Below are positions 41,455 to 59,000 of a stretch of DNA of 64,000 nt, one piece after another; position 1 is the stretch's first letter, and each line of letters opens with the position of its first letter. A program made the translations under genes and the position numbers. This DNA is from Anaeromyxobacter soli (GTDB taxonomy: Bacteria; Myxococcota; Myxococcia; Myxococcales; Anaeromyxobacteraceae). Under the pieces are notes generated by a model, which worked only from the letters and a program-made list of their open reading frames with translations, made no database searches and had not been told where the DNA came from. Where the stretch lies: positions 1 to 64,000 of the forward strand of contig NZ_JAKZLF010000026.1 of the NCBI RefSeq assembly GCF_022808855.1, written 5' to 3'.

Positions 41455-41730
41455 ATGCCTCGTTCCAGCAGCACCGCAGCGGACGGCTCGCCCGCCCCGC
41501 GCCCCGGGATGCCCCTCGGCCTCCTCGGCGACGGGGAGTCCGCGGAGATCGTCGCCGTCGCCACCGCCGCGCGCGGCGGGTGCGAGTCGCGCGCAGAGGA
41601 GATGGGCCTCCGCATCGGCAAGCGGGTCGTGATGCTCAGCAACGGCGCGGGCCCGGTGCTCGTCAAGGTGGACGAGTCGCGCATCGCGGTCGATCGCGGC
41701 GTCGCCATGAAGATCAAGGTCACCAAGTGA
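41455..41730 (+). CDS. feoA: FeoA domain protein 1
   Basis: The 91-residue protein carries an SH3-like FeoA domain (about 20-91) with LGDGESAEIVAVATAARGGCESRAEEMGLRIGKRVVML and a C-terminal VDRGVAMKIKV. FeoA is a small cytoplasmic protein that binds or regulates the FeoB transporter. The N-terminal 18 residues are a disordered Ser/Pro extension, so a later start is possible, though none has a better ribosome site. It is followed after 14 bases by a second FeoA gene. Confidence 0.85.
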   Translation: MPRSSSTAADGSPAPRPGMPLGLLGDGESAEIVAVATAARGGCESRAEEMGLRIGKRVVMLSNGAGPVLVKVDESRIAVDRGVAMKIKVTK

Positions 41731-41744
41731 CGGAGACGACGGAA

Positions 41745-41972
41745 ATGAACCTGGCGAGGCTCTCTCCCGGCGAGAAGGGGCGCATCACGGCGATCGGGGC
41801 GATCGGCCCGATGCGGCGGCGGCTCATGGACATGGGGCTCCTCCCCGGCGAGGAGGTGCGGGTGGAGAAGGTCGCCCCGCTCGGCGATCCCATCGAGGTG
41901 CGGATCCGCAGCTACCACCTGTCGCTCCGCAAGAAGGAGGCGGAGGGCATCGCGGTGGAGGTGACGCCGTGA
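41745..41972 (+). CDS. feoA: FeoA domain protein 2
   Basis: This 75-residue single FeoA domain has LSPGEKGRITAIGAIGPMRRRLMDMGLLPGEEVRVEKVAPLGDPIEVRIRSYHLSLRKKEAEGI-type organisation, the canonical form of the family. The ATG at 41745 has GGAG eight bases before it; an in-frame GTG at 41727 overlaps the previous stop. Its stop overlaps the FeoB GTG start by four bases (GTGA), tying its synthesis to FeoB. Two FeoA copies before one FeoB suggest that one regulates and one is structural (inference). Confidence 0.92.
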   Translation: MNLARLSPGEKGRITAIGAIGPMRRRLMDMGLLPGEEVRVEKVAPLGDPIEVRIRSYHLSLRKKEAEGIAVEVTP

Positions 41973-44182
41973 GCGCCGCGCCGAAGCTCTCCCCGGTCTC
42001 CGCAGAGCACCCCGGCGCCGCGCGGTCGATCACCATCGCGGTCGCCGGCAACCCCAACTCCGGCAAGTCCACGCTCATCAACGCGATCGCCGGCAGCCGC
42101 CTGCACGTGGGCAACTGGCCGGGCGTCACCGTGGAGAAGAAGGAGGCCGCCTTCGAGCACGAGGGGCGGCGCCTGCGGCTCGTCGATCTGCCGGGCACCT
42201 ACTCCCTCTCGCCCTACTCGCAGGAGGAGATCGTCGCGCGCGACTACCTCGCCCACGAGCGGCCCGACGTCATCGTGAACGTCGTGGACGCGACGAACCT
42301 CGAGCGGAACCTGTACCTCACGGTGCAGCTCCTCGAGCTCGGCATCCCGGTGGTGATGGCGCTCAACGTGTACGACGAGGCGCAGGCGAAGGGCCACCGC
42401 ATCGACGTGCGCGGCATCGAGGCGCGGCTCGGCGTCCGCGTGGTCCCGACCTCCGCGACGCGCAAGCAGGGCCTCGAGGAGCTGCTCGGAGCGGTCGTCG
42501 CCACCGCCGACCGCAGCCACGTCCGGACGATCGCCCCGCTCTCCTACGGCCCCGACCTCGACGGCGCGACCGCGGGCGTGGCGCGCGCCCTCGAGGAGCG
42601 ACACCCGGAGCTCACCGCGCGCCTCCCCGCGCGCTGGCTGGCGCTGAAGCTCGTCGAGGGGGACGCGCGCGTCCTCGAGGAGACCGGCCTCGAGCGCGAC
42701 GCCCTCGTCGCGGCGCCGCTCGCCCACCTCGTCGCCGCCCACGGCGACGACGTGGAGGCGATCGTCGCCGAGGCCCGCTACGGCCTCGCGGCGGGGCTCA
42801 CCCGCGAGGTGCTCGAGAGGCCGAGCCTCCAGAAGACCGAGCTCACCGAGCGGATCGACCGGGTGGTCCTGAACCGCTTCCTCGGGATCCCCATCTTCCT
42901 CGCCGCCATGTGGCTCGTCTTCAAGCTCACGTTCGATCTCTCCGCCCCCTTCGGCGACTGGATCGACGCGATGACGAGCGGCCCCTTCAAGCGCTGGGCG
43001 GCGGTCCTGCTCGGCGCGATCGGCGCGCCGGGCTGGACGGTGTCGCTCGTGAACGACGGCGTCATCGCGGGCGTCGGCTTCGTGCTCGTCTTCGTCCCCG
43101 TCATCTTCGCGATGATGTTCTTCATCACCTTCCTCGAGGGCTCCGGCTACATGGCCCGCGCCGCCTTCGTGATGGACAAGGCGATGCACGCGATGGGGCT
43201 CCACGGGAAGTCGTTCATCCCGATGGTCCTCGGCTTCGGCTGCAACGTCCCCGGCGTGTACGCCACCCGCACGCTGGAGAGCGGGCGCGACCGCATCCTC
43301 ACCGCGCTCCTCATCCCCCTCATGTCCTGCGGCGCGCGCCTCCCCGTGTACGTGCTGTTCGTCGGGGTGTTCTTCCCGCAGCGGCCCGGCACGGTCATCT
43401 GGTCGCTCTACGTCATCGGCATCGCGCTCGCGATCACCATGGGCGTCGTCTTCAAGAAGACGCTGTTCCGCGGCGAGGCGCCGGCGTTCATCATGGAGCT
43501 CCCGCCCTACCGCATGCCGTCGCTGCGCAGCCTGTGCCTCCACACCTGGGAGAAGGGGAAGCACTTCCTCACCAAGGCCGGCACCTACATCCTCGCGGTG
43601 TCCGTCATCGTCTGGTTCATGCTCAACCTGCCCTGGGGCGTGGAGCACAAGAAGGACTCGTACCTCGGCAAGGCGGGGCAGGTGATGGCGCCCGCGCTCG
43701 CGCCGCTCGGCTTCGGCACCTGGGAGGCGGCGTCCTCGCTCATCACCGGCGTCATCGCCAAGGAGATCGTGGTCGGCACGATGTCCGAGATCTACGCGCC
43801 GAAGCCCGCCCACGAGGAGCAGGCGCCGACGTTCGCCGAGGACCTGCGCGAGATCGGCACCTCGTTCGTGGGCGCCGGGCGCGAGGCGCTCTCGAACGTG
43901 GTGTCCACCGCGGGGCTCTCCTCCATCTCCATCGACAAGGCCGACGAGGCGCCCTCCCCGCTCAAGGACGCCGTGCGCGGCGCGTTCACGCCGCTCACCG
44001 CGCTCGGCTTCATGGTGTTCGTGCTGCTCTACATGCCGTGCGTGGTGGTCGCCATCGCCATGCGCCAGGAGTTCGGCGGCTGGAAGTGGTTCGGCGTCGC
44101 CTTCGCGTACCAGACGGCGCTCGCCTGGGGGATGGCGCTCCTCGTCTACCAGGGCGGCCGCCTGCTCGGGCTGGGGGCGTGA
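41969..44182 (+). CDS. feoB: Ferrous iron transporter FeoB
   Basis: The 737-residue protein is an inner-membrane Fe2+ transporter. An N-terminal GTPase domain has G1 GNPNSGKST near residue 28, G3 DLPGTYSL and a NVVDATNLERNLYLT switch region. A helical spacer follows, then a membrane domain with two Gate regions, including FGCNVPGVYATRTLES and MSCGARLPVYVLFVGVFF. Length is normal. The start is a GTG overlapping the FeoA2 stop. Fur and FNR-like control upstream of the operon is expected. Confidence 0.96.
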   Translation: MSAAPKLSPVSAEHPGAARSITIAVAGNPNSGKSTLINAIAGSRLHVGNWPGVTVEKKEAAFEHEGRRLRLVDLPGTYSLSPYSQEEIVARDYLAHERPDVIVNVVDATNLERNLYLTVQLLELGIPVVMALNVYDEAQAKGHRIDVRGIEARLGVRVVPTSATRKQGLEELLGAVVATADRSHVRTIAPLSYGPDLDGATAGVARALEERHPELTARLPARWLALKLVEGDARVLEETGLERDALVAAPLAHLVAAHGDDVEAIVAEARYGLAAGLTREVLERPSLQKTELTERIDRVVLNRFLGIPIFLAAMWLVFKLTFDLSAPFGDWIDAMTSGPFKRWAAVLLGAIGAPGWTVSLVNDGVIAGVGFVLVFVPVIFAMMFFITFLEGSGYMARAAFVMDKAMHAMGLHGKSFIPMVLGFGCNVPGVYATRTLESGRDRILTALLIPLMSCGARLPVYVLFVGVFFPQRPGTVIWSLYVIGIALAITMGVVFKKTLFRGEAPAFIMELPPYRMPSLRSLCLHTWEKGKHFLTKAGTYILAVSVIVWFMLNLPWGVEHKKDSYLGKAGQVMAPALAPLGFGTWEAASSLITGVIAKEIVVGTMSEIYAPKPAHEEQAPTFAEDLREIGTSFVGAGREALSNVVSTAGLSSISIDKADEAPSPLKDAVRGAFTPLTALGFMVFVLLYMPCVVVAIAMRQEFGGWKWFGVAFAYQTALAWGMALLVYQGGRLLGLGA

Positions 44183-44511: not shown

Positions 44512-45375
44512 ATGTCCTCGAACCGCCTCCTCGCCCTGCTCACCGCCGTCGCCCTCTCGGTCCCCGCCGCCGCCCTCGCGGAGGGGGACCTCCCGATCCA
44601 GGACAACAGCTTCCTCATCGAGGAGGCCTACAACCAGGAGCCGGGCGTCATCCAGCACATCAGCACCTTCAGCCGCGTCGGCGGCACGGGCGCGTGGCTC
44701 TACTCGTTCACCGAGGAGTGGCCGGTGCTCGGGCAGACCCACCAGGCGAGCGTCACGCTCAACTACGCCGGCCTCGAGGCCCCCCGCGCCACCGGGCTCG
44801 GCGACCTCATGCTCAACTACCGCTGGCAGGCGATCGGGAGCGGGGAGACGGAGGTCGCGCTGGCGCCGCGCCTCTCGGTCCTCGTCCCCACCGGCGACGA
44901 GCGGCGCGGGCTGGGGCTCGGTGGCGCCGGCGTCCAGGTGAACCTGCCGCTGAGCGCCATGCTCGGGCGGCGCTTCGTGACGCACGTGAACCTCGGCGGA
45001 ACGTACGTTCCGTCCGCGCTCGCCTCCGACGGCGGCCACGGTGCGCTCACCTCGTTCTCAGCCGGGCAGAGCCTCATCTGGCTCGCCCACGCGCGCTTCA
45101 ACGTGCTGACGGAGGTGCTCTACACGCGCTCGGAGACGGCGCGTCCCGGCGCGAACGATCACGCGGAGACGTTCACCGTCAACCCGGGCGTGCGCGGCGC
45201 GATCGACTTCGCGAGCGGGCTGCAGATCGTCCCGGGCGTCAGCGTGCCGCTCGGCGTCGGGCCGAGCCACGGGGAGCGCGCCGTGTTCCTGTACCTGAGC
45301 TTCGAGCACCCGTTCCGCCTCGCCGGTCCGACGGCCGAGGCGTCGGCGAAGCCGAGCGCGGACGGGCGTGGATGA
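44512..45375 (+). CDS. Outer-membrane protein, phenol-degradation MetA type
   Basis: The 287-residue protein has a clear signal peptide (LLALLTAVALSVPAAALA, cleavage near 24). A beta-barrel follows with LMLNYRWQAIG, VALAPRLSVLVPTGD and IVPGVSVPLGVGPS. The layout resembles the MetA-pathway-of-phenol-degradation/outer-membrane transporter family (PF13557), whose members are small channels or structural barrels. It lies 102 bases downstream of the FeoB-associated gene and may be part of the same operon, forming with the first gene a pair of barrels around feoAAB. Confidence 0.75.
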   Translation: MSSNRLLALLTAVALSVPAAALAEGDLPIQDNSFLIEEAYNQEPGVIQHISTFSRVGGTGAWLYSFTEEWPVLGQTHQASVTLNYAGLEAPRATGLGDLMLNYRWQAIGSGETEVALAPRLSVLVPTGDERRGLGLGGAGVQVNLPLSAMLGRRFVTHVNLGGTYVPSALASDGGHGALTSFSAGQSLIWLAHARFNVLTEVLYTRSETARPGANDHAETFTVNPGVRGAIDFASGLQIVPGVSVPLGVGPSHGERAVFLYLSFEHPFRLAGPTAEASAKPSADGRG

Positions 45376-45423: not shown

Positions 45424-46359
45424 TCAGGCCTGGCCCGCCGCGACCAGGATCCAGCGCAGCGCGAGCCCGCCCGCGAGCACCAGCGCGGGCGCCACGCGGG
45501 TCGCGCCGAGGTGCAGGCGCACCTCGAGCGTCTCCATGAGGAGCGGCACGGCGAGGCCGCCGAAGACCACGAGGGCGAAGAACTGCGCCGTGAACGGGCC
45601 GCCCAGCAGGAGCCCCGCGGCGGCGTGACCCGCCGCGCCTCCCGTGGAGAGCCCGACGAGGAACAGGACGATGAGCGCCGCCTCGACGGTGATCGCCGCA
45701 CGGTCCCAGCGCGCGACGAGCCGCCGCTCGTCCGCGTCGAGCCCGAAGAGGAGCAGGAAGGCCGCGCCGGTGGAGAGGCCCGAGACGAGGAAGAGCGGGC
45801 CGAGCAGGGCGGAGCTCCACAGGGCGCGCGCGCCGAGCGTGGAGAGGAGGACGCCGGTGTACACGCCGAGCGCGACGCCCACCCACAGGTTCGCGCGGAG
45901 GAGCGCCGGCGCGCGGCGGAGCGCGTACGCCCGCGCGGTCCGGACGAGGCCGCCCAGGCCGACGCGGCCGGCGAGCGCCGCAGCCCGCGCGGCCTGCGCC
46001 TCGTCGAGCCCGCCGAGCGCGACGAGCAGGCTCACCGGGTAGACGGCGACCAGGATCCACGCGCCCCACGACATGGGCGAGGACGGCCGGAGCGCGAGGT
46101 AGAAGCGCGCGATGTGGAGCTTGTGGGCGAGGTCGAGGAACAGGGCGCCCATGCCCACCGACACGAGCACCGGCGCGGCGAAGGCGAGCCAGCGCGCGGC
46201 GGGGGAGCGCTCCGGCCGCCGCGCGGCGAGGAGTGAGGTGACGATCATGAGCCCGGCCGCCATTCCGCCGAGGAAGAGGTAGACGGGGACCTCCCAGCCC
46301 CAGACGTGCAGCTGCGGATCGATGAGCCGGCTGTGCCGCGCGAGATCGAGCTCGGTCAT
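45424..46359 (-). CDS. NrfD/PsrC-like membrane subunit of a molybdoenzyme
   Basis: This 311-residue protein has eight or nine membrane helices and the NrfD/PsrC pattern, with WGWEVPVYLFLGGMAAGLMIVTSLLA near residue 21 and LFLDLAHKLHIARFYLALRPSSPMSWGAWIL near 75. PsrC-type subunits carry quinol electrons to the periplasmic iron-sulfur and molybdopterin subunits. It is the last gene of the operon with PsrA- and PsrB-like genes, though separated from them by two sulfur-transporter genes. The ATG has a GGGAGACCACC ribosome site. Confidence 0.9.
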   Translation of the reverse strand: MTELDLARHSRLIDPQLHVWGWEVPVYLFLGGMAAGLMIVTSLLAARRPERSPAARWLAFAAPVLVSVGMGALFLDLAHKLHIARFYLALRPSSPMSWGAWILVAVYPVSLLVALGGLDEAQAARAAALAGRVGLGGLVRTARAYALRRAPALLRANLWVGVALGVYTGVLLSTLGARALWSSALLGPLFLVSGLSTGAAFLLLFGLDADERRLVARWDRAAITVEAALIVLFLVGLSTGGAAGHAAAGLLLGGPFTAQFFALVVFGGLAVPLLMETLEVRLHLGATRVAPALVLAGGLALRWILVAAGQA

Positions 46360-46375
46360 GGTGGTCTCCCGTTCG

Positions 46376-47575
46376 TTAGCCGCTGCAGCCGCCGCCGCCC
46401 GCCTTGCGCGGCCCGCCGGGCGCCGCGGCGGGCACGGGGGGCGGCGGCGCCGCCTTCATTCCGGTCATCGCCGCCTGGATCCCGGCGCGCAGCCGGTACG
46501 CCTCGAGGTCGGAAGCCGGCGCGCCCGGAGCGGGCGGAGCGGGCGGGGTGAGCGCGAACGCCTCCCACGCCGCAAAGCCGCCCTCGAGGGCGTACACGCG
46601 GCCCGGGTAGGCCGCGGCGGCCTCCGGCATGGCGGGGAGCTCGGCGGCCCCGACGAGCACGAGGTCGCGCCCGGGGCTCGCGTCCGCGAGCCCGAGCGTG
46701 CCGAGCTTGTCCTGCGGGACGCACTCGGCGCCGGGGATCCGCTTCGCCGAGCAGGCCTCCATCGGCCTCAGATCGACGATGCGGAGCTTCCAGGGCTCGT
46801 CGAACACGCGGCGGGCCAGCGCGAGCGGCGCGAGGCCGGTCGGCGCGCGCCCGCCCTCGCGGGCCACCGTCGGCGCCGCGAGGCCCACGAGGCCCAGGGC
46901 GGCCGCGACGGCGAGCCCCGCGAACACGAAGCGCCCGGGCCGCCCCGCCGGCGTCGGGACCGCGCCGGGATGGGAGCGGCCTGCGAGGACGCGCTCCAGC
47001 TTCTCCGCGCCGACGAAGCACCCGACCGCCATCGCGGTCACGGCGAGCGCGACGACGTACGGGCCGGAGCGCGGCGAGAGGTGGAACAGCTCCCAGAGGT
47101 AGAAGTTGCCGAGGTCGCCGGCGTTGTGGAAGGTCGCGAACCCCGGCCGCCACTCGAGCTCCGCCCAGAGGACCTGCCCCACGATGACGCCGAGCACGGT
47201 CATGAGCCCGTCGAGCTTGCCGGAGGCCATCGCCACGAACGAGGTGCCCGGGCAGTAGCCGGAGACGATGAAGCCCGCGCCGAGCAGGAACCCGCCGGCG
47301 ACCATCGGCACGAGGTAGGTGCCGCTCACGGCGTGATCCGCGAGCGCCTTGAAGTCGGCGAGCCCCAGCGCCGAGGCGAGCACGACCCCGAGCATGGCCG
47401 TCACGATCGCGCTGAACATGACCTTGAAGACGGTCATGTCCTCCCCGTAGAACTGGGCGGCGAGCTTGTTGGCGCGCCCGAAGCCGGCGCGCTCGAGCAC
47501 GAACCCGAACCCGAAGCCGATGAGGACCGCGGCGACGAGCCCGAGCTCGAAGGGCGGCAGGATGGGGAACGTCAT
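46376..47575 (-). CDS. YeeE/YedE sulfur transporter fused to a degenerate rhodanese domain
   Basis: This 399-residue protein has an N-terminal YeeE/YedE transporter domain (about 1-190) with GFGFGFVLERAGFGRANKLAAQFYG and the cysteine motif SGYCPGTS. A membrane linker and a C-terminal rhodanese-like domain (about 230-350) follow. In the rhodanese part, IVDLRPMEACSAKRIPGAECVP is recognisable, but the loop that normally starts with the catalytic Cys reads LVLVGAAELPA and lacks it. The tail ends GGGGCSG. YeeE/YedE proteins import thiosulfate or related sulfur species (family knowledge). It overlaps the second transporter gene by four bases (ATGA, 47572-47575). Confidence 0.86.
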   Translation of the reverse strand: MTFPILPPFELGLVAAVLIGFGFGFVLERAGFGRANKLAAQFYGEDMTVFKVMFSAIVTAMLGVVLASALGLADFKALADHAVSGTYLVPMVAGGFLLGAGFIVSGYCPGTSFVAMASGKLDGLMTVLGVIVGQVLWAELEWRPGFATFHNAGDLGNFYLWELFHLSPRSGPYVVALAVTAMAVGCFVGAEKLERVLAGRSHPGAVPTPAGRPGRFVFAGLAVAAALGLVGLAAPTVAREGGRAPTGLAPLALARRVFDEPWKLRIVDLRPMEACSAKRIPGAECVPQDKLGTLGLADASPGRDLVLVGAAELPAMPEAAAAYPGRVYALEGGFAAWEAFALTPPAPPAPGAPASDLEAYRLRAGIQAAMTGMKAAPPPPVPAAAPGGPRKAGGGGCSG

Positions 47576-48081
47576 CTCCACTCCCTCCTCAGGAACCAGG
47601 CGAGCGCGTAGCCGCCGCCGAACACCGAGAACATGAAGGCCCAGGCGCCGACCGACAGGAGCGCGCCGCCCGAGAGCGCCTGGCCGGAGGTGCAGCCGCG
47701 CGTCATCTTGGCGGCGGCGCCCATGAGCACGCCGCCCGCGAGCGCGAGCGCGAGCCGCGCGCCGTTGCCGATGCGGGGCCCCTTCAGCACCTCGCCGCGC
47801 AGCCGGCCGGAGGTGTAGGCCGCGACGACGCCGCCGAGCAGCGCGCCGAAGATCTCGAACACGAGCCAGGTCACGTGCGGGCTCGCCTCCGCGCGCGCGA
47901 GGGACGGCGTGCTCGCCACGTGCGAGGGCGCGAAGACCTCGAGCGCGGCGATGCCCGCGCGGAGCGACGCGCCGGAGGCGCCGAGGCCCGAGCCCATCAC
48001 CAGGAACGAGGTGAAGAGCACGAGGCCGAGGGCCACGCCGGCGAGGTACGGGTTCCAGAACTTGTCGGGGTTCCGTTGCAT
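47572..48081 (-). CDS. YeeE/YedE family sulfur transporter, short form
   Basis: The 169-residue protein is half of a YeeE/YedE unit: four or five helices with the signature cysteine in MTRGCTSGQALSGGALLSVGAWAFM. Together with the next gene it should build a two-subunit transporter, as in other split YedE pairs. It lies nine bases after the PsrB-like gene and overlaps the following transporter gene. Position inside the reductase operon suggests it moves the sulfur substrate or product across the inner membrane (inference). Confidence 0.88.
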   Translation of the reverse strand: MQRNPDKFWNPYLAGVALGLVLFTSFLVMGSGLGASGASLRAGIAALEVFAPSHVASTPSLARAEASPHVTWLVFEIFGALLGGVVAAYTSGRLRGEVLKGPRIGNGARLALALAGGVLMGAAAKMTRGCTSGQALSGGALLSVGAWAFMFSVFGGGYALAWFLRREWR

Positions 48082-48090
48082 CTCGGGCTC

Positions 48091-48630
48091 CTACGTGAGG
48101 AAGAACACGTTCGGCTCGTTGCCCGACCCGGGCTGGAGCACCTTCACGCGGCGCGAGCGGGTGAGCTCCGCGACGCGGCTCGCCGGGTCGGCGAGGTCGC
48201 CGAAGGTGAGCGCGCGCGTGGGGCAGGTCTCCACGCAGGCGGGGAGGTTCCCCTCGCGGACGCGGTGCAGGCAGAAGGTGCACTTGTCCACGAAGCCCTC
48301 CGGGTGGACGTAGCGCGCGCCGTACGGGCACGACGCCACGCACGCCTTGCAGCCCGTGCACTTCGACCGCGTCACGGCCACCACCCCGCCGTCGGCGACG
48401 TGGCTCGCGCCCGTCGGGCAGGCGGAGACGCAGGAGGGGCGGCTGCACTGGTTGCAGCGCTCCGAGCGGATCTCCATCGAGAGCCCCGGGAACGCGCCGT
48501 GCGTCTCCTCGGCGATCCAGCCGCGGAACCCGCCGCTCGGCAGCGCGTTCTCCGTCTTGCAGGCGATGACGCAGGCGTTGCAGCCGACGCAGCGGGCGGT
48601 GTCGACCGCCATGGCGTAGCGCTTCCTCAT
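48091..48630 (-). CDS. Four-cluster ferredoxin-like subunit (PsrB/NrfC-like)
   Basis: This 179-residue protein carries four [4Fe-4S] sites. The Cys motifs are CVGCNACVIACKTEN, CNQCSRPSCVSACPTGA, CTGCKACVASCPYGARYVHP and CTFCLHRVREGNLPACVETCPTRAL. This is the electron-transfer subunit between the PsrC-like membrane protein and the catalytic subunit. Its ATG overlaps the TGA of the catalytic gene (48627-48630), so the two are made in equal amounts. No signal peptide is seen; the catalytic partner carries the Tat signal for export. Confidence 0.94.
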   Translation of the reverse strand: MRKRYAMAVDTARCVGCNACVIACKTENALPSGGFRGWIAEETHGAFPGLSMEIRSERCNQCSRPSCVSACPTGASHVADGGVVAVTRSKCTGCKACVASCPYGARYVHPEGFVDKCTFCLHRVREGNLPACVETCPTRALTFGDLADPASRVAELTRSRRVKVLQPGSGNEPNVFFLT

Positions 48631-50861
48631 GCCGACCTCTCGGCGCGCTCGAGGCGCACGAAGTTCACGCTCATGCCGGTGCCGCCCATGATGGGGTCGA
48701 CGGCGTAGCGGGTGACGAGCGCGCTGTCGGAGGCGCCGCGGCCGTACGCGTAGCCGAGCCGCTTCGCGGTCTGCCCCCAGCCGTGCACGAGGTACACGCA
48801 GTCACCGCGGATCCGCTGCGTCACCTTCGCGCGCACCGGCCCGGAGCGCGCGCCGTCCTGGTTCACGAGGAACACGCGCTCGCCGTCCTCGAGCGGCTGC
48901 GCGAACCCGGGCAGCGCGCGCGCGACGTCCGCGTTCACCCACACCTCGTTCTCCGGGTAGGGCTCGGCGAGGAGCCGGTTGTTCACCGTGCGGCCGAAGG
49001 TGTGCGTCGGGGCCCGCCCCATGAGCAGCCGGAACTGGCCCGGGGGCGGCTCCTCGTGCGGGTAGTACTGGGGGAGCGGGTCGAAGCCGAGCTTCGCGAG
49101 CTCCTCGCTGCGCAGCTGGATCTTGCCCGACTCGTGGGGCACCTCGACCGCGAGCCCCTCCTCCTCGCAGGTCGCGACCTCGCGGCCGAGCACGACGCCC
49201 GTCTCGCGGGCGCGGGCGACGTCGTGGCCGCCCGCGCGGAGCCGCGCGTCCACGTACTCGCGCGCGTCCTTCCAGGGGAAGTGCTCCGCGAGCCCCACGC
49301 GCCCGGCGAGCTCCTTCGCGATCCACCAGCCCGGCTTCGAGTCGTGGAGCGGCGGCACCACCTCCTGCCGCACCGCGAGGAACGGCCGCTTGTACGCGGG
49401 CGCCGCGATGTCGTCGTCGCGCTCGAGGTAGGTCGCCTCGGGGAGCACCACGTCGCTCCACCCGCAGATCTCCGCGGGCAGCACGTCGATCGACACGACG
49501 AGGTCGAGCCCCTCGAGCGCCTTCACCGTCTGGCGCCGGTCGGGCAGCGCCTGCATGAGGTTGCAGCCGTAGATGAGCCAGGCCTTGAGGTCGTAGAGCG
49601 CCTGGCCCGACACGCTCGCGTCGCACAGGCCCGAGGCGATGACCTCGGTGGCGACCGGGAAGCCGCCCTTCTTCGGCCGGTCGGCCGCGCCCTTCCCCCC
49701 GTGCGGAGGCTCGGCCGTCACCGGGTACGGCGGGAGCGAGAGCTTCGCGTGGCTCACGTAGCCGCCGCGCCGGCCCCAGCTGCCGAGCAGCGCGGAGAGG
49801 ATCGCCATGGCCCGCGCGCGCTGGGTGTCGTCGCCGTACCAGGTGGTGTGGCGGCCGGGGTGGACGAGCGAGGCGGGGCGCGCGGAGGCGATGAGCCGCG
49901 CGCTGTCGCGGATGAGCTCGGGGCGGAGGCCGGTGATGGGATAGGCCCACTCCGGCGTCTTGTCCGCCACGTGCGCGCGGAGCTCCTCGAGGCCGACCGC
50001 GTGCTTCGCGAGGTACTCGGCGTCGTAGGCGTTCTCCGCCAGCATCACGTTCATCCAGGCGAGGAGGAGCGCGATGTCGGTGCCGGGCTTGATGGGCAGC
50101 CAGTAGCGCGCCTTGCTCGCGGCGACCGAGAAGCGCGGGTCGACCACCACGAGCTCGGCGCCGCGCCCGACCGCCTCGGCGAGGTCCTGCACCTGGGTGT
50201 TGTGCATGTTCTCGCCGAGGTGGCTGCCGATGAGCGTGATGACCCGGGCGTTCGCGAGGTCGATCGGCTCCGGCGAGCCGAGCGGCGTGCCGAAGGTGAG
50301 GAGGTAGCCCGCCTCGCGCGGCCCGCGGCACTGCGCGTAGGACGGCGCGCCGACGTTGGGCGAGCCCCACGCCTTCATGAAGTGCTTGAACCAGGTGCCG
50401 CCCGAGCCGTGCGTGAAGAGCGCGACCGCCTCGGGGCCGTGCCGGCGCTTCACCTCGAGGAGCCCCTCGCCGACGCGGTTCAGCGCCGCGTCCCAGCTCA
50501 CCTCCTCGAACACGTCTTCGCCCCGCTTCTGCGTGCGGACGAGCGGCCTCCTCAGGCGATCGGGGTCGTAGAGGAGGCCGGTCGCGCCGGCGCCGCGCGG
50601 GCAGAGCATGCCGCGGGAGAGCGGGTGGTCGGGGTTGCCGACCACCTTCGTCACCCGCCCGTCCTTCACGTGCGCCCTCACCCCGCAGCCCCAGAAGCAG
50701 AGCTCGCAGTACGAGGCGACCACGCGGTCGCCGTCGGTGGCGGGATCCTCCACGCGGTCCGCGTCGAGGCCCCACCAGCGCGTGGTGAGCCCGGACGCGA
50801 GGGCCGCGCCGCCGGCCGCCGCGCCGCCGATCTGGATGAACTTCCTGCGGGTGAGAGTCAT
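48627..50861 (-). CDS. Polysulfide/thiosulfate reductase-like molybdopterin subunit
   Basis: The 744-residue protein has a Tat signal (TRRKFIQIGGAAAGG) and an N-terminal [4Fe-4S] motif Cys52-X2-Cys55-X3-Cys59-X27-Cys87, which marks the DMSO-reductase superfamily. Cys178 in SYAQCRGPREAG is the likely molybdenum ligand, as in PsrA/PhsA. Length and layout fit polysulfide, thiosulfate or tetrathionate reductases. With the PsrB- and PsrC-like genes and two sulfur transporters downstream, sulfur-compound respiration in the periplasm is the best guess. Arsenate- or selenate-type substrates cannot be excluded by sequence alone. Confidence 0.88.
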   Translation of the reverse strand: MTLTRRKFIQIGGAAAGGAALASGLTTRWWGLDADRVEDPATDGDRVVASYCELCFWGCGVRAHVKDGRVTKVVGNPDHPLSRGMLCPRGAGATGLLYDPDRLRRPLVRTQKRGEDVFEEVSWDAALNRVGEGLLEVKRRHGPEAVALFTHGSGGTWFKHFMKAWGSPNVGAPSYAQCRGPREAGYLLTFGTPLGSPEPIDLANARVITLIGSHLGENMHNTQVQDLAEAVGRGAELVVVDPRFSVAASKARYWLPIKPGTDIALLLAWMNVMLAENAYDAEYLAKHAVGLEELRAHVADKTPEWAYPITGLRPELIRDSARLIASARPASLVHPGRHTTWYGDDTQRARAMAILSALLGSWGRRGGYVSHAKLSLPPYPVTAEPPHGGKGAADRPKKGGFPVATEVIASGLCDASVSGQALYDLKAWLIYGCNLMQALPDRRQTVKALEGLDLVVSIDVLPAEICGWSDVVLPEATYLERDDDIAAPAYKRPFLAVRQEVVPPLHDSKPGWWIAKELAGRVGLAEHFPWKDAREYVDARLRAGGHDVARARETGVVLGREVATCEEEGLAVEVPHESGKIQLRSEELAKLGFDPLPQYYPHEEPPPGQFRLLMGRAPTHTFGRTVNNRLLAEPYPENEVWVNADVARALPGFAQPLEDGERVFLVNQDGARSGPVRAKVTQRIRGDCVYLVHGWGQTAKRLGYAYGRGASDSALVTRYAVDPIMGGTGMSVNFVRLERAERSA

Positions 50862-50904
50862 CGCTGGCGCTCCTTCGAGGGAGATCCTGACGCGCCTTGC
50901 CGCG

Positions 50905-52179
50905 CTAGAAGTGGTAGGCGAGGCCGACGTCGATCTCGAGCTGCGACATCTCGGTCGAGTAGGCGGCGATGCCCTGGCCGTTGCCCATCGGCGGCGGCGG
51001 CGCGGCGTTCGAGCCCTCGAGCTTCGAGTTGAGCGCGTACATGCCGGCCACGTTCACGTTGAGCTTCTGGCCGATCGCGTAGCCGACGCCGGCGGTGAGG
51101 TGGTGCTCCGAGACGGCCGGGAACGCCATGTTCTCGAACGCGCGGTCCGGGTCGAGCGGCATCTTGCCGTAGTTGTAGCCGGCGCGGAGCGCGAGCTGCG
51201 CGGTCGGCTTCACCTGGGCGCCCACCTTCACCACCCACTGATCGCTCCAGCCCATGTTGAACGGCATGGCGCCGGTGGCGCTCGGGTCGCTCGTGTACTG
51301 CGGGAGCCCGTCACCCATCGTGCTCGACCAGTCGATCCACTGGACGTCCACCGCGAGGAGGAGGGCGTCCACCGGGGTCACGGCCACGCCGAGGGTGGCG
51401 CTCTGCGGCTGGTCGAACGAGAGCTTGTCGGTGCCGCCCGGGATCGTCGTGCCCGGCGCCATCGGGTTCGGGCGCGCCGGGACGTCGAACGAGAAGTCCT
51501 GGAACCAGCTGCGCGTCTCGTACGCGGCGCCCAGGGTGACGCGCTTCACCGGCGTGAACTTGACGCCGAAGGTGGCGCCGCCGCCCACCGCCGTGGAGGT
51601 GTCGTGCGCCGCCTGGCCGGCGCCGGAGGCGACGTCGTACTTCATCTGCGCCACCATGACGTTCGCGGTGACGCCGAGGCTGAGGCGATCGCTCACCCGG
51701 TAGGACGCGCCGGGCGTGAAGCGGCCCTGCATGTAGGAGGTGAGGGTCGGCCCGTAGTAGAGGTTCGTCGCGTAGTCGACGCCCATGCCGGCGACGCCGA
51801 ACACGCCGAGGCCGGCGGAGATCCGGTCGGTCACCGGCTGGACGTAGGCGATGACCGGGATCGGCGAGGCGCCGCGGTCCGAGTCGAGGGACGCGCCGTC
51901 GTTCGCGACGAACATCGCGGGCATGCTCCCCGTCGCGCTGTAGCTGACCGACGGCTTGAAGTACGAGCCGCCGAGCTCGAAGCACCGCCCCAGGTCGGCG
52001 ATGCCCGCCGGGTTGGTGAGGAGCGAGGCGCCGTCGAGCGTCGCGCCCACGCCCACGCCGCCCATGGCGTCCTGCACGGCGCCGAAGCCGATCATCCGCA
52101 TGCCGTTCGTCGCGTGCGCCGCCGCCGGCGCGATCGTCGAGATCGCGGCGAGGAGCACGGTGAGCCTCTTCATCGTCAT
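50905..52179 (-). CDS. OmpP1/FadL-family outer-membrane porin
   Basis: This 424-residue protein has a signal peptide (cleavage after HA, about residue 23) and the FadL hallmark TNPAGIADLG near residue 55. A 14-strand barrel follows, ending in LEIDVGLAYHF with the typical C-terminal Phe. FadL proteins admit hydrophobic molecules through the outer membrane. It lies 43 bases upstream of the molybdoenzyme gene, so in this operon it may admit polysulfide or elemental-sulfur-like substrate (inference). AGGAAGAGG before the ATG at 52179 supports that start; ATG 52173 is possible. Confidence 0.88.
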   Translation of the reverse strand: MTMKRLTVLLAAISTIAPAAAHATNGMRMIGFGAVQDAMGGVGVGATLDGASLLTNPAGIADLGRCFELGGSYFKPSVSYSATGSMPAMFVANDGASLDSDRGASPIPVIAYVQPVTDRISAGLGVFGVAGMGVDYATNLYYGPTLTSYMQGRFTPGASYRVSDRLSLGVTANVMVAQMKYDVASGAGQAAHDTSTAVGGGATFGVKFTPVKRVTLGAAYETRSWFQDFSFDVPARPNPMAPGTTIPGGTDKLSFDQPQSATLGVAVTPVDALLLAVDVQWIDWSSTMGDGLPQYTSDPSATGAMPFNMGWSDQWVVKVGAQVKPTAQLALRAGYNYGKMPLDPDRAFENMAFPAVSEHHLTAGVGYAIGQKLNVNVAGMYALNSKLEGSNAAPPPPMGNGQGIAAYSTEMSQLEIDVGLAYHF

Positions 52180-52415: not shown

Positions 52416-53858
52416 ATGGAACAGGCCCAGCACCCCACGAGCAACCGCGACGTCGCCTTCGCCGCCGTGAACGCCGCGTTCGGCTCGATCGGCCGCATCT
52501 GCATGGCGCTCGACGGACAGTTCCGGATCCGCCACGCCTCCGAGCGCGTGGAGTCGCTGCTCGGGCCGGGGGCCGCCGCGCGGATCACGGGTGCGCCGGT
52601 CGAGACGGTGCTCGGCAGCGAGCTGTTCGGGCCTGAGGGACCCCTCCGTCAGGCGCTCGTCGCGGGCGAGCGTCGCGAGGGGTGGCGCGCCTACCTCCAG
52701 TGCGAGCGCGGCCCGCGGCTGCTCTCGGTCACCGCCGCGCCCCTGCAGCACGACCCGCACGGCGTCTGCGATCCCTCCGCCGCCTACCTCGTCATCCTCC
52801 GTCCCGCCGACGACGAGTCGCCGGACGTCTGCGCGCCCGTCGCCGGCTTCGGCGTGATGTGCCGCTCGCAGGCCATGACGCGGGTGTTCCGCCTCATCGA
52901 GACGCTGCAGCACAGCGAGTCGACCGTGCTCGTCACCGGGGAGAGCGGGACGGGCAAGGAGGTGATGGCGCGCATCATCCACGCGCACTCGCCGCGCCGG
53001 AACGGCCCGTTCATCGCGGTGAACGCCGCGGCCCTCCCCGCCGAGCTGCTCGAGAGCGAGCTCTTCGGGCACGTGCGCGGCGCCTTCACCGGCGCGATCC
53101 GCGACCGGACCGGGCGGTTCGAGTCGGCCGAGGGCGGGACGCTCTTCCTCGACGAGATCGGCGACCTGCCGCTCGCCGTGCAGGTGAAGCTCCTGCGCGT
53201 CCTGCAGGAGCACACCTACGAGCGCGTCGGCGACGACAAGGTGCGCAGGACGAACGCCCGGATCATCGCCGCGACCCACCGCGATCTCCGCCGCGCCGTC
53301 GCCGCCGGCACCTTCCGCGAGGACCTCTACTACCGGCTGCGGGTGTTCCCGGTGGAGCTCCCGCCCCTGCGCGCGCGGCGCGAGGACATCGAGCCCATCG
53401 CGCGGGTCCTCCTCGGGCGCGTGGGCGCTCGGACGGCGCGGGCGCTGCACTTCTCGCCCGACGCGCTCCGCGCCCTCCTCTCCCACGACTGGCCCGGCAA
53501 CGTGCGCGAGCTCGAGAACGCGCTCGAGTACGCCGCCACCGTGTGCAAGGGGCAGACGCTCCAGCCCGAGGACCTGCCGCCGGAGGTCGGCGCGGCCGCG
53601 GCGGCGCGCGCGGAGCCGCTCGTCGCGCCCGCGCCCGCCCTCGCCCCCTCCTCGACCCCGGCGGCCCTCCTCGCGATCGCCGGGCGCCGCGCCGTCCCGC
53701 ACGACGAGCGCGCCACCCTGCAGGCGACGCTCGACGCCCACCGCTGGAACCGCGCGGACACCGCCAAGGCGCTCGGCCTCTCCCGCAGCACGCTGTGGCG
53801 GCGCATGCGGGCGCTCGGGCTGCTCGACCCCGCGGAGGCTTCCGGCGCGCTCGCCTGA
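52416..53858 (+). CDS. Sigma54-dependent transcriptional activator with PAS domain
   Basis: The 480-residue protein has an N-terminal PAS-like domain (about 22-130), an AAA+ domain with Walker A GESGTGK (175-181), GAFTG (222-226) and TLFLDEIGDLP, and a Fis-type HTH at the end (ADTAKALGLSRSTLWRRMRAL). Scattered Cys residues in the sensor half (96, 118, 139, 149) could respond to sulfur or redox state, but that is speculation. It is divergent from the porin/reductase operon and is its obvious candidate activator. The ATG at 52416 follows GGGAGAG. The perfect inverted repeat lies immediately upstream. Confidence 0.92.
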   Translation: MEQAQHPTSNRDVAFAAVNAAFGSIGRICMALDGQFRIRHASERVESLLGPGAAARITGAPVETVLGSELFGPEGPLRQALVAGERREGWRAYLQCERGPRLLSVTAAPLQHDPHGVCDPSAAYLVILRPADDESPDVCAPVAGFGVMCRSQAMTRVFRLIETLQHSESTVLVTGESGTGKEVMARIIHAHSPRRNGPFIAVNAAALPAELLESELFGHVRGAFTGAIRDRTGRFESAEGGTLFLDEIGDLPLAVQVKLLRVLQEHTYERVGDDKVRRTNARIIAATHRDLRRAVAAGTFREDLYYRLRVFPVELPPLRARREDIEPIARVLLGRVGARTARALHFSPDALRALLSHDWPGNVRELENALEYAATVCKGQTLQPEDLPPEVGAAAAARAEPLVAPAPALAPSSTPAALLAIAGRRAVPHDERATLQATLDAHRWNRADTAKALGLSRSTLWRRMRALGLLDPAEASGALA

Positions 53859-56175: not shown

Positions 56176-57612
56176 TCAGCCCGCGCTGCCCCAGCCCCGC
56201 TCGACGGCGCGCGCGCCGCGGGCGAACGCCTCGGCGTTCACCGCGACGAGCGCAGGGCGCTTCTGCAGCGCCTGGCGGATGACGGCGAGGACGGTCTCGG
56301 CGGGGAAGAGCCCGGTGGCCCCCTGCAGCGCGCCGATGGCGACCACGTTCTTCACGAGCGGCTGGCCGAGCTCCGCCGCGATCTCGGAGAGGGGCACGCC
56401 CAGCGCGCGGACGCCGGGCGGGAGGGCGTGCGGCTCGCGGATCACGGAGCGGTCGTAGAGCGCGATCCCGCCGGGCGCGACCGTGGCCCCGAACTTGGCG
56501 AGGCTCGGGGCGTTGAAGGCGACGAGCGCGTGCGGCGAGGGCACGTCGGGGGAGAGCACCTGCGTGCGCGCGATCCGCACGTCGGCGTAGGAGGTGCCGC
56601 CGCGCGACTCCGGGCCGTAGCTCGGGATGTGCGTCGCGTCGAGCCCCTCGTTCACGGCCGCGTGGACCATCAGCATCGCCGCCGTCTGCGCGCCGTCGCC
56701 CCCCGAGCCGGCGAACTTGAGGCCGAGCTCGTCGCCGCCGAACGGCGTGGCGGGAAAGCCCTGCGCGTAGCGCGGCGCCTCCGCCTGCCGCGCGTCGATC
56801 GCCTCGAGCACCGCGTCCGCCGCGTACGTGGGCGTGCGCCACGCGTCGAAGCTCGCGGTCGCCGAGACGTCCTTCTTCACGCCCAGCGGGAAGACCGGGA
56901 CCATCTTCTCCTTCACCCAGCGCTCCGCCTCCTCGGCGGAGAGGCGCAGGTGCGTCGGGCACTCGGCGAGCACCTCGACGAAGGAGAAGCCCTTCCCCTC
57001 CGCCTGGAGCTCTAGGCCCTTCTTCACCGCCTTCGCCGCGCGCACCCGCTGCTTCGCGTCGAAGAGCGCCACCCGCTCCACGTACACCGGGCCGTCGAGC
57101 TGGGCGATGAGCTCCGCCATCTTGAGCGGCAGGCCCATGGAGAGGTCGCGCCCGTGCGGCGAGGTGGTGGTCTTCTGGCCCATGAGCGTGGTGGGCGCGG
57201 TCTGACCGCCGGTCATGCCGTAGATCGCGTTGTTCACGAACACGACCGACAGGGGCACGCCGAGCTGCGCGGCGTGGAGGATCTCGGTGAGGCCGATGGA
57301 GGCGAGGTCGCCGTCGCCCTGGTAGCTCACCACCACGCTGTCCGGGTTCGAGAGCTTGTGGCCGAGCGCGACCGCGGGCGCGCGGCCGTGCGCCGCCTGC
57401 GTGTGGCCGACGTCCAGGTAGTAGTAGAGGAACACGCTGCAGCCGACCGGCGACACCGCGATGGTCCGGTCCTGGATCCCGAGCTCCTCGATGGCCTCGG
57501 CGAGGTAGCGGTGCACGAGCCCGTGGCCGCAGCCGGGGCAGTAGTGGGTGCTGCGCCCCTTGATGCCCTCGGCGTGATCGTGCCGCTCGAACCGCTCGTA
57601 GAAGACGCTCAC
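56176..57612 (-). CDS. 2-oxoacid:ferredoxin oxidoreductase, fused beta-gamma subunit
   Basis: The 478-residue protein joins a TPP-binding beta subunit (about 1-270; THYCPGCGHG at 22-31, GDGDLASIGLTE at 99-110, FVNNAIYGMTGGQ) to a gamma subunit (about 290-478; FAGSGGDGAQTAAMLM). It oxidatively decarboxylates a 2-oxoacid to its acyl-CoA and reduces ferredoxin. The start is a GTG at 57612 overlapping the upstream stop (GTGA). Substrate could be 2-oxoglutarate or branched-chain 2-oxoacids; the isovaleryl-CoA operon elsewhere in the window makes the latter attractive but does not prove it. Confidence 0.9.
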   Translation of the reverse strand: MSVFYERFERHDHAEGIKGRSTHYCPGCGHGLVHRYLAEAIEELGIQDRTIAVSPVGCSVFLYYYLDVGHTQAAHGRAPAVALGHKLSNPDSVVVSYQGDGDLASIGLTEILHAAQLGVPLSVVFVNNAIYGMTGGQTAPTTLMGQKTTTSPHGRDLSMGLPLKMAELIAQLDGPVYVERVALFDAKQRVRAAKAVKKGLELQAEGKGFSFVEVLAECPTHLRLSAEEAERWVKEKMVPVFPLGVKKDVSATASFDAWRTPTYAADAVLEAIDARQAEAPRYAQGFPATPFGGDELGLKFAGSGGDGAQTAAMLMVHAAVNEGLDATHIPSYGPESRGGTSYADVRIARTQVLSPDVPSPHALVAFNAPSLAKFGATVAPGGIALYDRSVIREPHALPPGVRALGVPLSEIAAELGQPLVKNVVAIGALQGATGLFPAETVLAVIRQALQKRPALVAVNAEAFARGARAVERGWGSAG

Positions 57613-59000
57613 GCCGTCACCCGCCTTCCCGCGGACTTCCGTACCCCCGCGGCGATCTCGAGCTGCGACGGCAGGATGCCTCCGTGCCGCCGCACGTGCT
57701 CGATGGGCACCTCTCCGCCGACGCCCGCGTGGCTCAGCGCGAGCCGGAGCTCGTCCTCGAGCTGCCCGTCGCTCGCCTCGACCACGACGATGCGGCGCGC
57801 CCGGCGGACGAGCGGGAGGAGCGCGGCGACCGGGAACGGCCAGACCGTCTGCGGGCGGAACAGCCCGACCCGCACGCCCTCGGCGCGGAGCGCGGCCACC
57901 GCCCCCGACGCCATGCGCGCCGGGGTGCCGCAGGCGACGACGAGCGTCTCGGCGTCCTCGCAGTGGAGGGTCTCGACGCGCTGCTCCGCGGCGGTCATGC
58001 GCGCGTACTTGTCGAAGAGGTGGAGGTTGTGGGCCTCCTGGTCCGCCTCGCGCAGCAGGATCGAGGAGTGGAGGTTCCCGCGGTGCGGGCCGTCGCCCGA
58101 CACGGCCCAGCCCGGGAGCCCCGGCCGGACGAGCGCGCGCGGCAGCTCCACCTTGCCGGTCATCTGGCCGAGGTGCCCGTCGGCCGCGACCACCACCGGG
58201 TTCCGGTAGCGGAAGGCGAGCTCGAAGGCGAGCATCGTGAAGTCGAGCATCTCCTGCGGCGTCGCCGGCGCGAGCACGATGGCGTGCGTGCTCCCGTGGC
58301 CGAGGCCGCGGCAGGCGAGCTTCAGGTCCGACTGCTCGGGCCCGATGTTCCCGAGCCCGGGCCCGGCGCGCATCACGTTCACGAAGACGGCGGGGAGCTC
58401 GGCGCCGATGAGGTAGGAGACGCCCTCGAGCATCAGGCTGAAGCCGGGGGAGGACGTGAACGTCATCGTCCGCCGCCCCGCGCCGGCCGCGCCGTACATC
58501 ATGTTGACGGCCGCGACCTCGCTCGGCGCCTGGACGAAGCTGCCGCCCAGCGCGGGCAGGAGCTTCGCCATGAGCTCGGCGCCCTCGGTGGACGGCGTGA
58601 TCGGGTAGCCGAAGAAGTGGCGGCAGCCGGCGAGCAGCGCGCCGATGGCCGACGCGTGCGTGCCCTTCACGACGAGCGGGGGCGAGTGCGGCAGCGGCAC
58701 CCGCGCGTCCGGCTCGTCCGGCGGGGGGACGAAGCGCGCGCGCGGCGCCACGGCGGCGGGCTCGCGCGCCGCCCCCGGGAGCGCCATCTCGAGCCCGTAC
58801 GGCTCGGGGCACGCCTCGGCGCACAGCCCGCAGCCGTTGCAGGCGTCGAGGCTCAGGACGATGGGGACGAGCCCGGAGAGCTCGTTGATGTCGGTGCCGG
58901 GCGCGATGCAGGCGCGCGCGCAGGCCTCCCGACATCTGCCGCAGCCCTTGCAGCACTCCTCGTGGAGCACCGGCATCTCACGGACGTCGACGTGAGCCAC
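57609..59000 (-). CDS. 2-oxoacid:ferredoxin oxidoreductase, ferredoxin-alpha fusion
   Basis: The 463-residue protein has an N-terminal two-cluster ferredoxin domain (about 10-70, with the CKGCGRCREAC and CNGCGLCAEACP motifs). An alpha subunit follows (about 110-455) with FFGYPITPSTEGAELM and the PFPVAALLPLVRRARRIVVVEASDGQLEDE region. Together with the beta-gamma fusion downstream it packs the usual four subunits into two chains. The start is GTG 59000 with AGGAGGAGG before it. The first ferredoxin cluster has extra cysteines (Cys16 and Cys31). Confidence 0.9.
   Translation of the reverse strand: MAHVDVREMPVLHEECCKGCGRCREACARACIAPGTDINELSGLVPIVLSLDACNGCGLCAEACPEPYGLEMALPGAAREPAAVAPRARFVPPPDEPDARVPLPHSPPLVVKGTHASAIGALLAGCRHFFGYPITPSTEGAELMAKLLPALGGSFVQAPSEVAAVNMMYGAAGAGRRTMTFTSSPGFSLMLEGVSYLIGAELPAVFVNVMRAGPGLGNIGPEQSDLKLACRGLGHGSTHAIVLAPATPQEMLDFTMLAFELAFRYRNPVVVAADGHLGQMTGKVELPRALVRPGLPGWAVSGDGPHRGNLHSSILLREADQEAHNLHLFDKYARMTAAEQRVETLHCEDAETLVVACGTPARMASGAVAALRAEGVRVGLFRPQTVWPFPVAALLPLVRRARRIVVVEASDGQLEDELRLALSHAGVGGEVPIEHVRRHGGILPSQLEIAAGVRKSAGRRVTA

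Follow-up and report, generated by a model that had tools for sequence, protein, structure and literature searches.

Within the 64,000-nucleotide stretch of Anaeromyxobacter soli DNA analysed here (termed, at its full length, the window), six open reading frames on the minus strand run from 52179 to 45424 in the order fadL, psrA, psrB, yeeE1, yeeE2 and psrC, as judged from their frames and their Pfam and NCBIfam matches. At about even confidence, this operon encodes a sulfur-handling respiratory unit that joins a polysulfide reductase (PsrABC), a split YeeE channel and a membrane-tethered carrier, namely a rhodanese-fold domain that lacks the rhodanese catalytic cysteine and bears a thiol at its tail. 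An earlier interpretation of this DNA (termed here the sequence-only reading) had named the same six genes, all of whose frames are present and whose families are borne out by profile scores, but had taken YeeE2 for a plain transporter, thereby overlooking its extra domains. Beyond its channel half, YeeE2 continues into a fifth transmembrane helix, a rhodanese-fold domain and a disordered C-terminal tail that ends in a GGGGCSG arm:

46460 to 46840, minus strand: rhodanese-fold domain without the catalytic loop cysteine (YeeE2 residues 246-372), predicted by a confident AlphaFold2 model whose Foldseek matches are rhodaneses
46379 to 46459, minus strand: predicted flexible C-terminal arm ending KAGGGGCSG, with a predicted local distance difference test score (pLDDT) below 50; the tail cysteine, Cys397, lies at 46385-46387

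The window copy of the domain scores 21.7 bits against PF00581, just below the cut-off of 22.2; an orthologue (L054) matches the same profile at 1.7e-16. In many other lineages the domain is instead a separate gene directly after yeeE2, again with a rhodanese fold (PF00581 4.9e-16 in L139). The catalytic cysteine of the CxxGxR loop is missing from every one of the 72 domains compared, its position being occupied mostly by serine, glycine or alanine (e.g., LYSEGGIHSAQAW). Because 25 of these, all separate domains, had first been picked by their tails, the tail-cysteine count was repeated without that filter: among complete copies beside yeeE2, a cysteine occurs within the last four residues of 37/37 fused and 25/25 separate domains (62/62 in all), in endings such as KKKKEGC, KKGGGC and GGGGCSG. 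It is often the sole cysteine of the rhodanese-arm domain. Among 317 further proteins encoded in these operons, none has a cysteine within its last four residues, and no other rhodanese match in the window's genome has a cysteine tail of the arm type. The arm probably lies in the periplasm and so shares a compartment with Tat-exported PsrA, because a charge bias at the anchoring helix favours that side in 30/37 fused and 16/22 separate copies and because a small version of the arm protein, described below, has signal peptides.

The channel itself is divided between two genes:

47572 to 48081, minus strand: yeeE1 (169 residues), C-terminal channel half, PF04143 63.7 bits (cut-off 27) over profile positions 175-309, with Cys130 in RGCTSG
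46376 to 47575, minus strand: yeeE2 (399 residues), N-terminal channel half followed by the transmembrane helix, rhodanese-fold domain and arm, PF04143 48.6 bits over profile positions 2-202, with Cys108 in GYCPGT

Since YeeE1 corresponds to the C-terminal and YeeE2 to the N-terminal part of PF04143, the two are, by their sequences, halves of a single transporter of the YedE1E2/PmpAB kind. Thus both genes do lie between psrB and psrC, as the sequence-only reading held, but they encode complementary halves of one channel rather than two transporters. Uptake of zero-valent sulfur by YedE1E2 has been reported in recombinant Escherichia coli (PMC10812762). The window's pair resembles YedE1E2/PmpAB in consisting of two complementary half-proteins with a single conserved cysteine apiece (PMC10812762, PMC11582611); it differs in that its YeeE2 carries (and elsewhere precedes) the rhodanese-arm domain and in being tied to a respiratory reductase.

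That reductase is most likely, judging by its subunit sequences, a periplasm-facing quinol:polysulfide reductase, PsrABC:

48627 to 50861, minus strand: psrA, catalytic molybdopterin subunit, with an RRKF Tat-type start, the molybdenum-ligand cysteine Cys178 and PF00384 at 139.9 bits
48091 to 48630, minus strand: psrB, iron-sulfur subunit (PF13247), with 16 cysteines in four 4Fe-4S motifs
45424 to 46359, minus strand: psrC, NrfD-type membrane quinol subunit, PF03916 at 126.3 bits

PsrA exceeds the cut-offs both of PF04879 and of PF00384, as expected of a molybdenum-bisPGD subunit with an Fe4S4 domain, and Cys178 is kept in every alignment row covering that position. Its best relative of solved structure is Thermus PsrA (2vpw; 717.8 bits by phmmer, 861.8 by profile), the next in the Protein Data Bank being acetylene hydratase (211.8 and 259.6 bits, respectively). 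Identity to Thermus PsrA is 48.5% over 722 columns. A PhsA-type thiosulfate reductase was considered and rejected (30.9% identity to PhsA; 440 bits, below the cut-off of 694). A quick tree with two long outgroup branches, relied on here solely for the placement of Thermus relative to PhsA, puts Thermus PsrA together with the YeeE-linked sequences and separates them from PhsA. Phylogeny and scores thus place the catalytic subunit with a sulfur enzyme, as had been proposed, rather than with non-sulfur enzymes. The window operon shares with Thermus thermophilus PsrABC the molybdenum-ligand cysteine, the four-cluster PsrB and the NrfD-type PsrC, and adds to them the split YeeE channel and the cysteine-arm rhodanese, the comparison covering PsrABC itself.

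The operon genes are tightly packed, with 4-base overlaps between psrA and psrB and between yeeE1 and yeeE2, and the gene order psrA-psrB-yeeE1-yeeE2 (with its rhodanese domain)-psrC is kept in eight other Anaeromyxobacteraceae genomes; the operon proteins of one relative (G003) are 89-97% identical to the window copies. A. terrae SG22 likewise carries the operon (locus L114). A wider sample of 80 psrA loci, found by scanning with a PsrA alignment and limited to one genome per species, spans Myxococcota, Bdellovibrionota, Acidobacteriota, Gemmatimonadota, Planctomycetota, Ignavibacteriota/Bacteroidota/Chlorobiota, Armatimonadota and Pseudomonadota. (Genes were called with a codon-based finder tuned to GC-rich DNA, for which reason the loci of other phyla were read as stop-to-stop frames.) Both YeeE halves and PsrC occur in 58/58 loci with at least 4 kb of sequence downstream of psrA, and the YeeE genes therefore belong to the orthologous operons, as the sequence-only reading required; because the loci were picked by likeness to the window's PsrA, this count is valid for that PsrA clade and not for all Psr. 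Recurrence of the unit across phyla argues against chance association. In the plasmid collection only enterobacterial PhsA was matched, and no YeeE was annotated in the single region read.

The first gene of the operon is less constant:

50905 to 52179, minus strand: fadL-like outer-membrane porin gene, PF03349 at 91.6 bits (cut-off 29.7)

Because the product passes PF03349 but falls far short of the NCBIfam FadL equivalog cut-off (34.5 bits, with 585 needed), it is regarded as a FadL-family porin and is not assigned as the fatty-acid transporter FadL. FadL genes lie within reach in 16 of the 42 widely covered loci (about 38%), at a density of ~24 per Mb of flank versus ~0.6 per Mb of genome, an enrichment of about 40-fold (the two counts using slightly different profiles). 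The porin is therefore a genuine but optional partner of the operon and not, as had been supposed, a fixed component. This bears upon a simple linear unit, in which hydrophobic sulfur comes in through FadL and is reduced by PsrABC in the periplasm, YeeE imports sulfur independently and the rhodanese tail is incidental. All of the genes that it names are present, the porin is enriched beside the operon, and for Desulfurivibrio dismutans it has been suggested that sulfur enters through a porin encoded next to YeeE and sulfurtransferases (PMC12142623). Nevertheless, most orthologous loci are without FadL while the tail cysteine is invariant, which implies that the tail is not incidental, and the linear unit is accordingly considered very unlikely. 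The path from porin through periplasmic reduction to import, as originally drawn, thus had its genes right but left out what is likely to be its central piece, the cysteine-tipped rhodanese arm.

Arms of similar design also occur apart from this domain and apart from PsrABC. At five loci of the family that lack the fused domain, yeeE2 adjoins a gene for a protein of ~102 residues that has a signal peptide and ends in FFKK(A/P)GGC; this small exported protein is unrelated to the rhodanese-arm domain but shares its FFKKxGGC-type tail. Its homologues within the phylum all end in GC (13/13), and at least 11 of them adjoin an eight-haem cytochrome. A second operon type in the family, here called type B (L045:2941-8564, L049:2-4791 and L057:4855-10386), encodes a PsrA of 44-46% identity, a fusion of PsrB with a cytochrome b561 domain, the YeeE halves, a rhodanese of 218-221 residues ending in GGCG, and an ArsR regulator that has two cysteines at its C-terminus. 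At still other loci, called type C (L058:4274-9941, L059:4003-9530, L060:8111-13683, L252, L253 and L262), the YeeE halves and a rhodanese arm (ending VKGGCG, VIGGC or VLGGC) are kept while an octahaem cytochrome of the tetrathionate-reductase family (TIGR04315; 569.5 bits in L262 and 532 in L058) and a cytochrome b561 replace PsrABC. Certain Bacteroidota (L245 and L247-L249) have the YeeE pair and a cysteine arm with other rhodaneses only, their tails reading ...RMGC. From these sequences the YeeE pair and the cysteine arm form a portable module. The strongest argument for a substrate-carrying arm is its occurrence with two kinds of sulfur-compound reductase that are unrelated to each other.

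The same observations weigh upon a different role for the tail cysteine, that of a tether or sensor and not a carrier, for example by attaching the domain to PsrABC or to the channel through a disulfide or thiol contact. Terminal cysteines are able to tether complexes, and a carrier role is drawn only from position, flexibility and gene context; however, a mobile carrier accounts better for the flexible glycine- and lysine-rich arm, for the lost rhodanese thiol and for the presence of the arm beside an unrelated octahaem reductase, so that a purely structural contact appears unlikely, though not negligibly so. The nature of the substrate may likewise be questioned, since the small tail-cysteine protein weakly resembles ExtJ of the Geobacter selenite/tellurite cluster: the substrate could be a selenium or tellurium oxyanion or an elemental chalcogen other than sulfur. 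The Geobacter ext cluster holds a rhodanese, a porin and multihaem cytochromes (PMC5877670), and YedE has selenium-linked members. On the other hand, the ExtJ match (26.7 bits) is below its cut-off of 52.5, the nearest relative of PsrA is Thermus PsrA, and TIGR04315, the family of the octahaem partners, takes its name from tetrathionate reductase; a selenium or tellurium substrate is thus distinctly improbable. In Anaeromyxobacteraceae (L141-L153) the small exported protein, ending in (A/G)GC, is found almost always beside an eight-haem cytochrome, with or without YeeE. On another contig of the window's own genome (L055:7313-10367), a second YeeE pair is followed by a 101-residue exported protein ending in KKAGGC and by an eight-haem cytochrome.

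The proposed carrier may be compared with several known systems. SoxY carries a cysteine in a C-terminal GGCGG arm. The likeness to the rhodanese-arm domain lies in this glycine-rich, cysteine-bearing arm (here in 62/62 copies), and the differences lie in the rhodanese fold, the membrane anchor and the association with reductases instead of Sox enzymes; no SoxZ gene was found in the operon. Sud of Wolinella is a periplasmic rhodanese-fold protein, proposed to feed sulfur to PsrA, that uses the rhodanese catalytic cysteine. Both are proposed rhodanese-fold partners of Psr in (or, here, probably in) the periplasm, but Sud is soluble and has the loop cysteine, whereas the window's domain is predicted to be membrane-anchored, lacks that cysteine and has its thiol at the C-terminus. 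In Desulfurivibrio dismutans a Psr operon includes a secreted rhodanese, and a porin lies near sulfurtransferases and YeeE (PMC12142623), so that the pairing of Psr genes with an exported rhodanese and the proximity of porin and YeeE are both shared; in that organism, however, the rhodanese of the Psr operon, with its three PF00581 domains, is described as an active sulfurtransferase, and the YeeE and porin genes are apart from psr. Hence Psr, the split YeeE channel and porin-near-YeeE arrangements are already known. Within the open-access literature, and without this proving absence, no description was found of a rhodanese that lacks the loop cysteine, has an invariant C-terminal cysteine arm and is tied to YeeE and to reductases. 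Somewhat short of even confidence is the broader proposal that these proteins constitute a class of membrane-anchored, rhodanese-fold respiratory carriers, in which the active thiol sits at the tip of a swinging arm instead of in the loop, which is common to PsrABC and to the octahaem tetrathionate-reductase family, which is paired with split YeeE, and which, in at least eight phyla, would be a reductive counterpart of the sulfur carrier SoxYZ (PMC13047784).

Such a carrier would operate as follows. Zero-valent sulfur, as polysulfide or dissolved S8, would enter the periplasm (through FadL in some strains) and load the arm cysteine as a persulfide. The arm would then swing into PsrA, where its bound sulfane sulfur would be reduced to HS- with menaquinol electrons delivered via PsrC and PsrB. 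The same arm could also exchange sulfur with the conserved cysteines of YeeE1 and YeeE2, and the channel would pass it across the inner membrane to cytoplasmic acceptors such as TusA, of which three homologues are encoded elsewhere in the window's genome and one may be the channel's partner. Sulfur might instead flow in the service of oxidation: PsrABC would oxidise sulfide or take part in disproportionation, and the arm and YeeE would carry the product sulfur inward to be oxidised in the cytoplasm. Sulfur destined for oxidation is indeed taken up by YeeE-like SoxT proteins (PMC11582611), and yedE is a marker of sulfur disproportionators (PMC12998232), but no DsrA above the cut-off was found in the genome, the operon has neither a DsrE nor a TusA gene, and PsrA is of the reductase type; a reversed flow is accordingly rated decidedly unlikely. 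For the same reasons two specific forms of disproportionation were rejected, namely a Dsr-based one (no DsrA match above cut-off in the genome) and one based on a YTD cluster, which has yedE, tusA and dsrE together (neither tusA nor dsrE being in the operon).

Several points weigh against the carrier unit as proposed. A few domains (in type B L045, L129 and L134) keep a cysteine one position before the loop site; the topology of the arm rests on a charge bias with which 30 of 37 fused and 16 of 22 separate copies agree; possession of psrABC is no guarantee of sulfur respiration, most Deferribacteres that have psrABC failing to reduce S0 (PMC6896113); and a search of the open-access literature found no sulfur growth data for Anaeromyxobacter. 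If the carrier unit is real, the arm would be the reductive-side equivalent of the Sox carrier, and it would bear both on how poorly soluble sulfur gets to the buried active site of polysulfide reductase and on why YeeE channels adjoin respiratory enzymes. Because the arm has a conserved cysteine that a single residue change can remove, both questions are directly testable. The combination of YeeE halves, a rhodanese without the loop cysteine and a C-terminal GGC or EGC would also offer a signature by which sulfur-respiring lineages might be recognised in metagenomic data from Acidobacteriota, Ignavibacteriota, Gemmatimonadota and Myxococcota.

Upstream of the operon, the sequence-only reading missed a divergent activator gene, and between this gene and fadL lie two candidate control elements:

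52419 to 53858, plus strand: sigma-54-dependent activator gene (PAS-like, AAA+ and Fis helix-turn-helix parts), divergent from the operon, PF00158 at 237.4 bits
52356 to 52390, no strand assigned: perfect 35-base palindrome with 15-base arms, a candidate activator site, unique in the genome
52277 to 52291, minus strand: weak candidate sigma-54 (-24/-12) promoter, GGGCACGCGGCGCGC, agreeing with 8/11 consensus positions, and the same in L043

A sigma-54 activator also adjoins the operon in L043-L045, L050 and L051, and L044 has a GTTTC-N5-GAAAC core similar to that of the window's palindrome. The palindrome was considered as the mark of a regulon and rejected, since it occurs once in the genome and so links no other operon. 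In other phyla the sigma-54 activator is replaced, upstream of psrA, by a regulator of the ArsR type (18 loci) or the MerR type (14 loci), as at L084:8121-8975 and L140:8403-8966.

The region is flanked in the window by what appear, from their sequences, to be a FeoA/FeoB-type ferrous iron uptake cluster (41500-44182) on one side and a pair of 2-oxoacid:ferredoxin oxidoreductase-like genes (56176-59000) on the other. Convergent with the operon, on the plus strand at 44512-45375, is a gene for an exported protein of 287 residues that matches no Pfam or NCBIfam family; a frame of similar size occupies the same place in A. terrae (L043:6624-7493).

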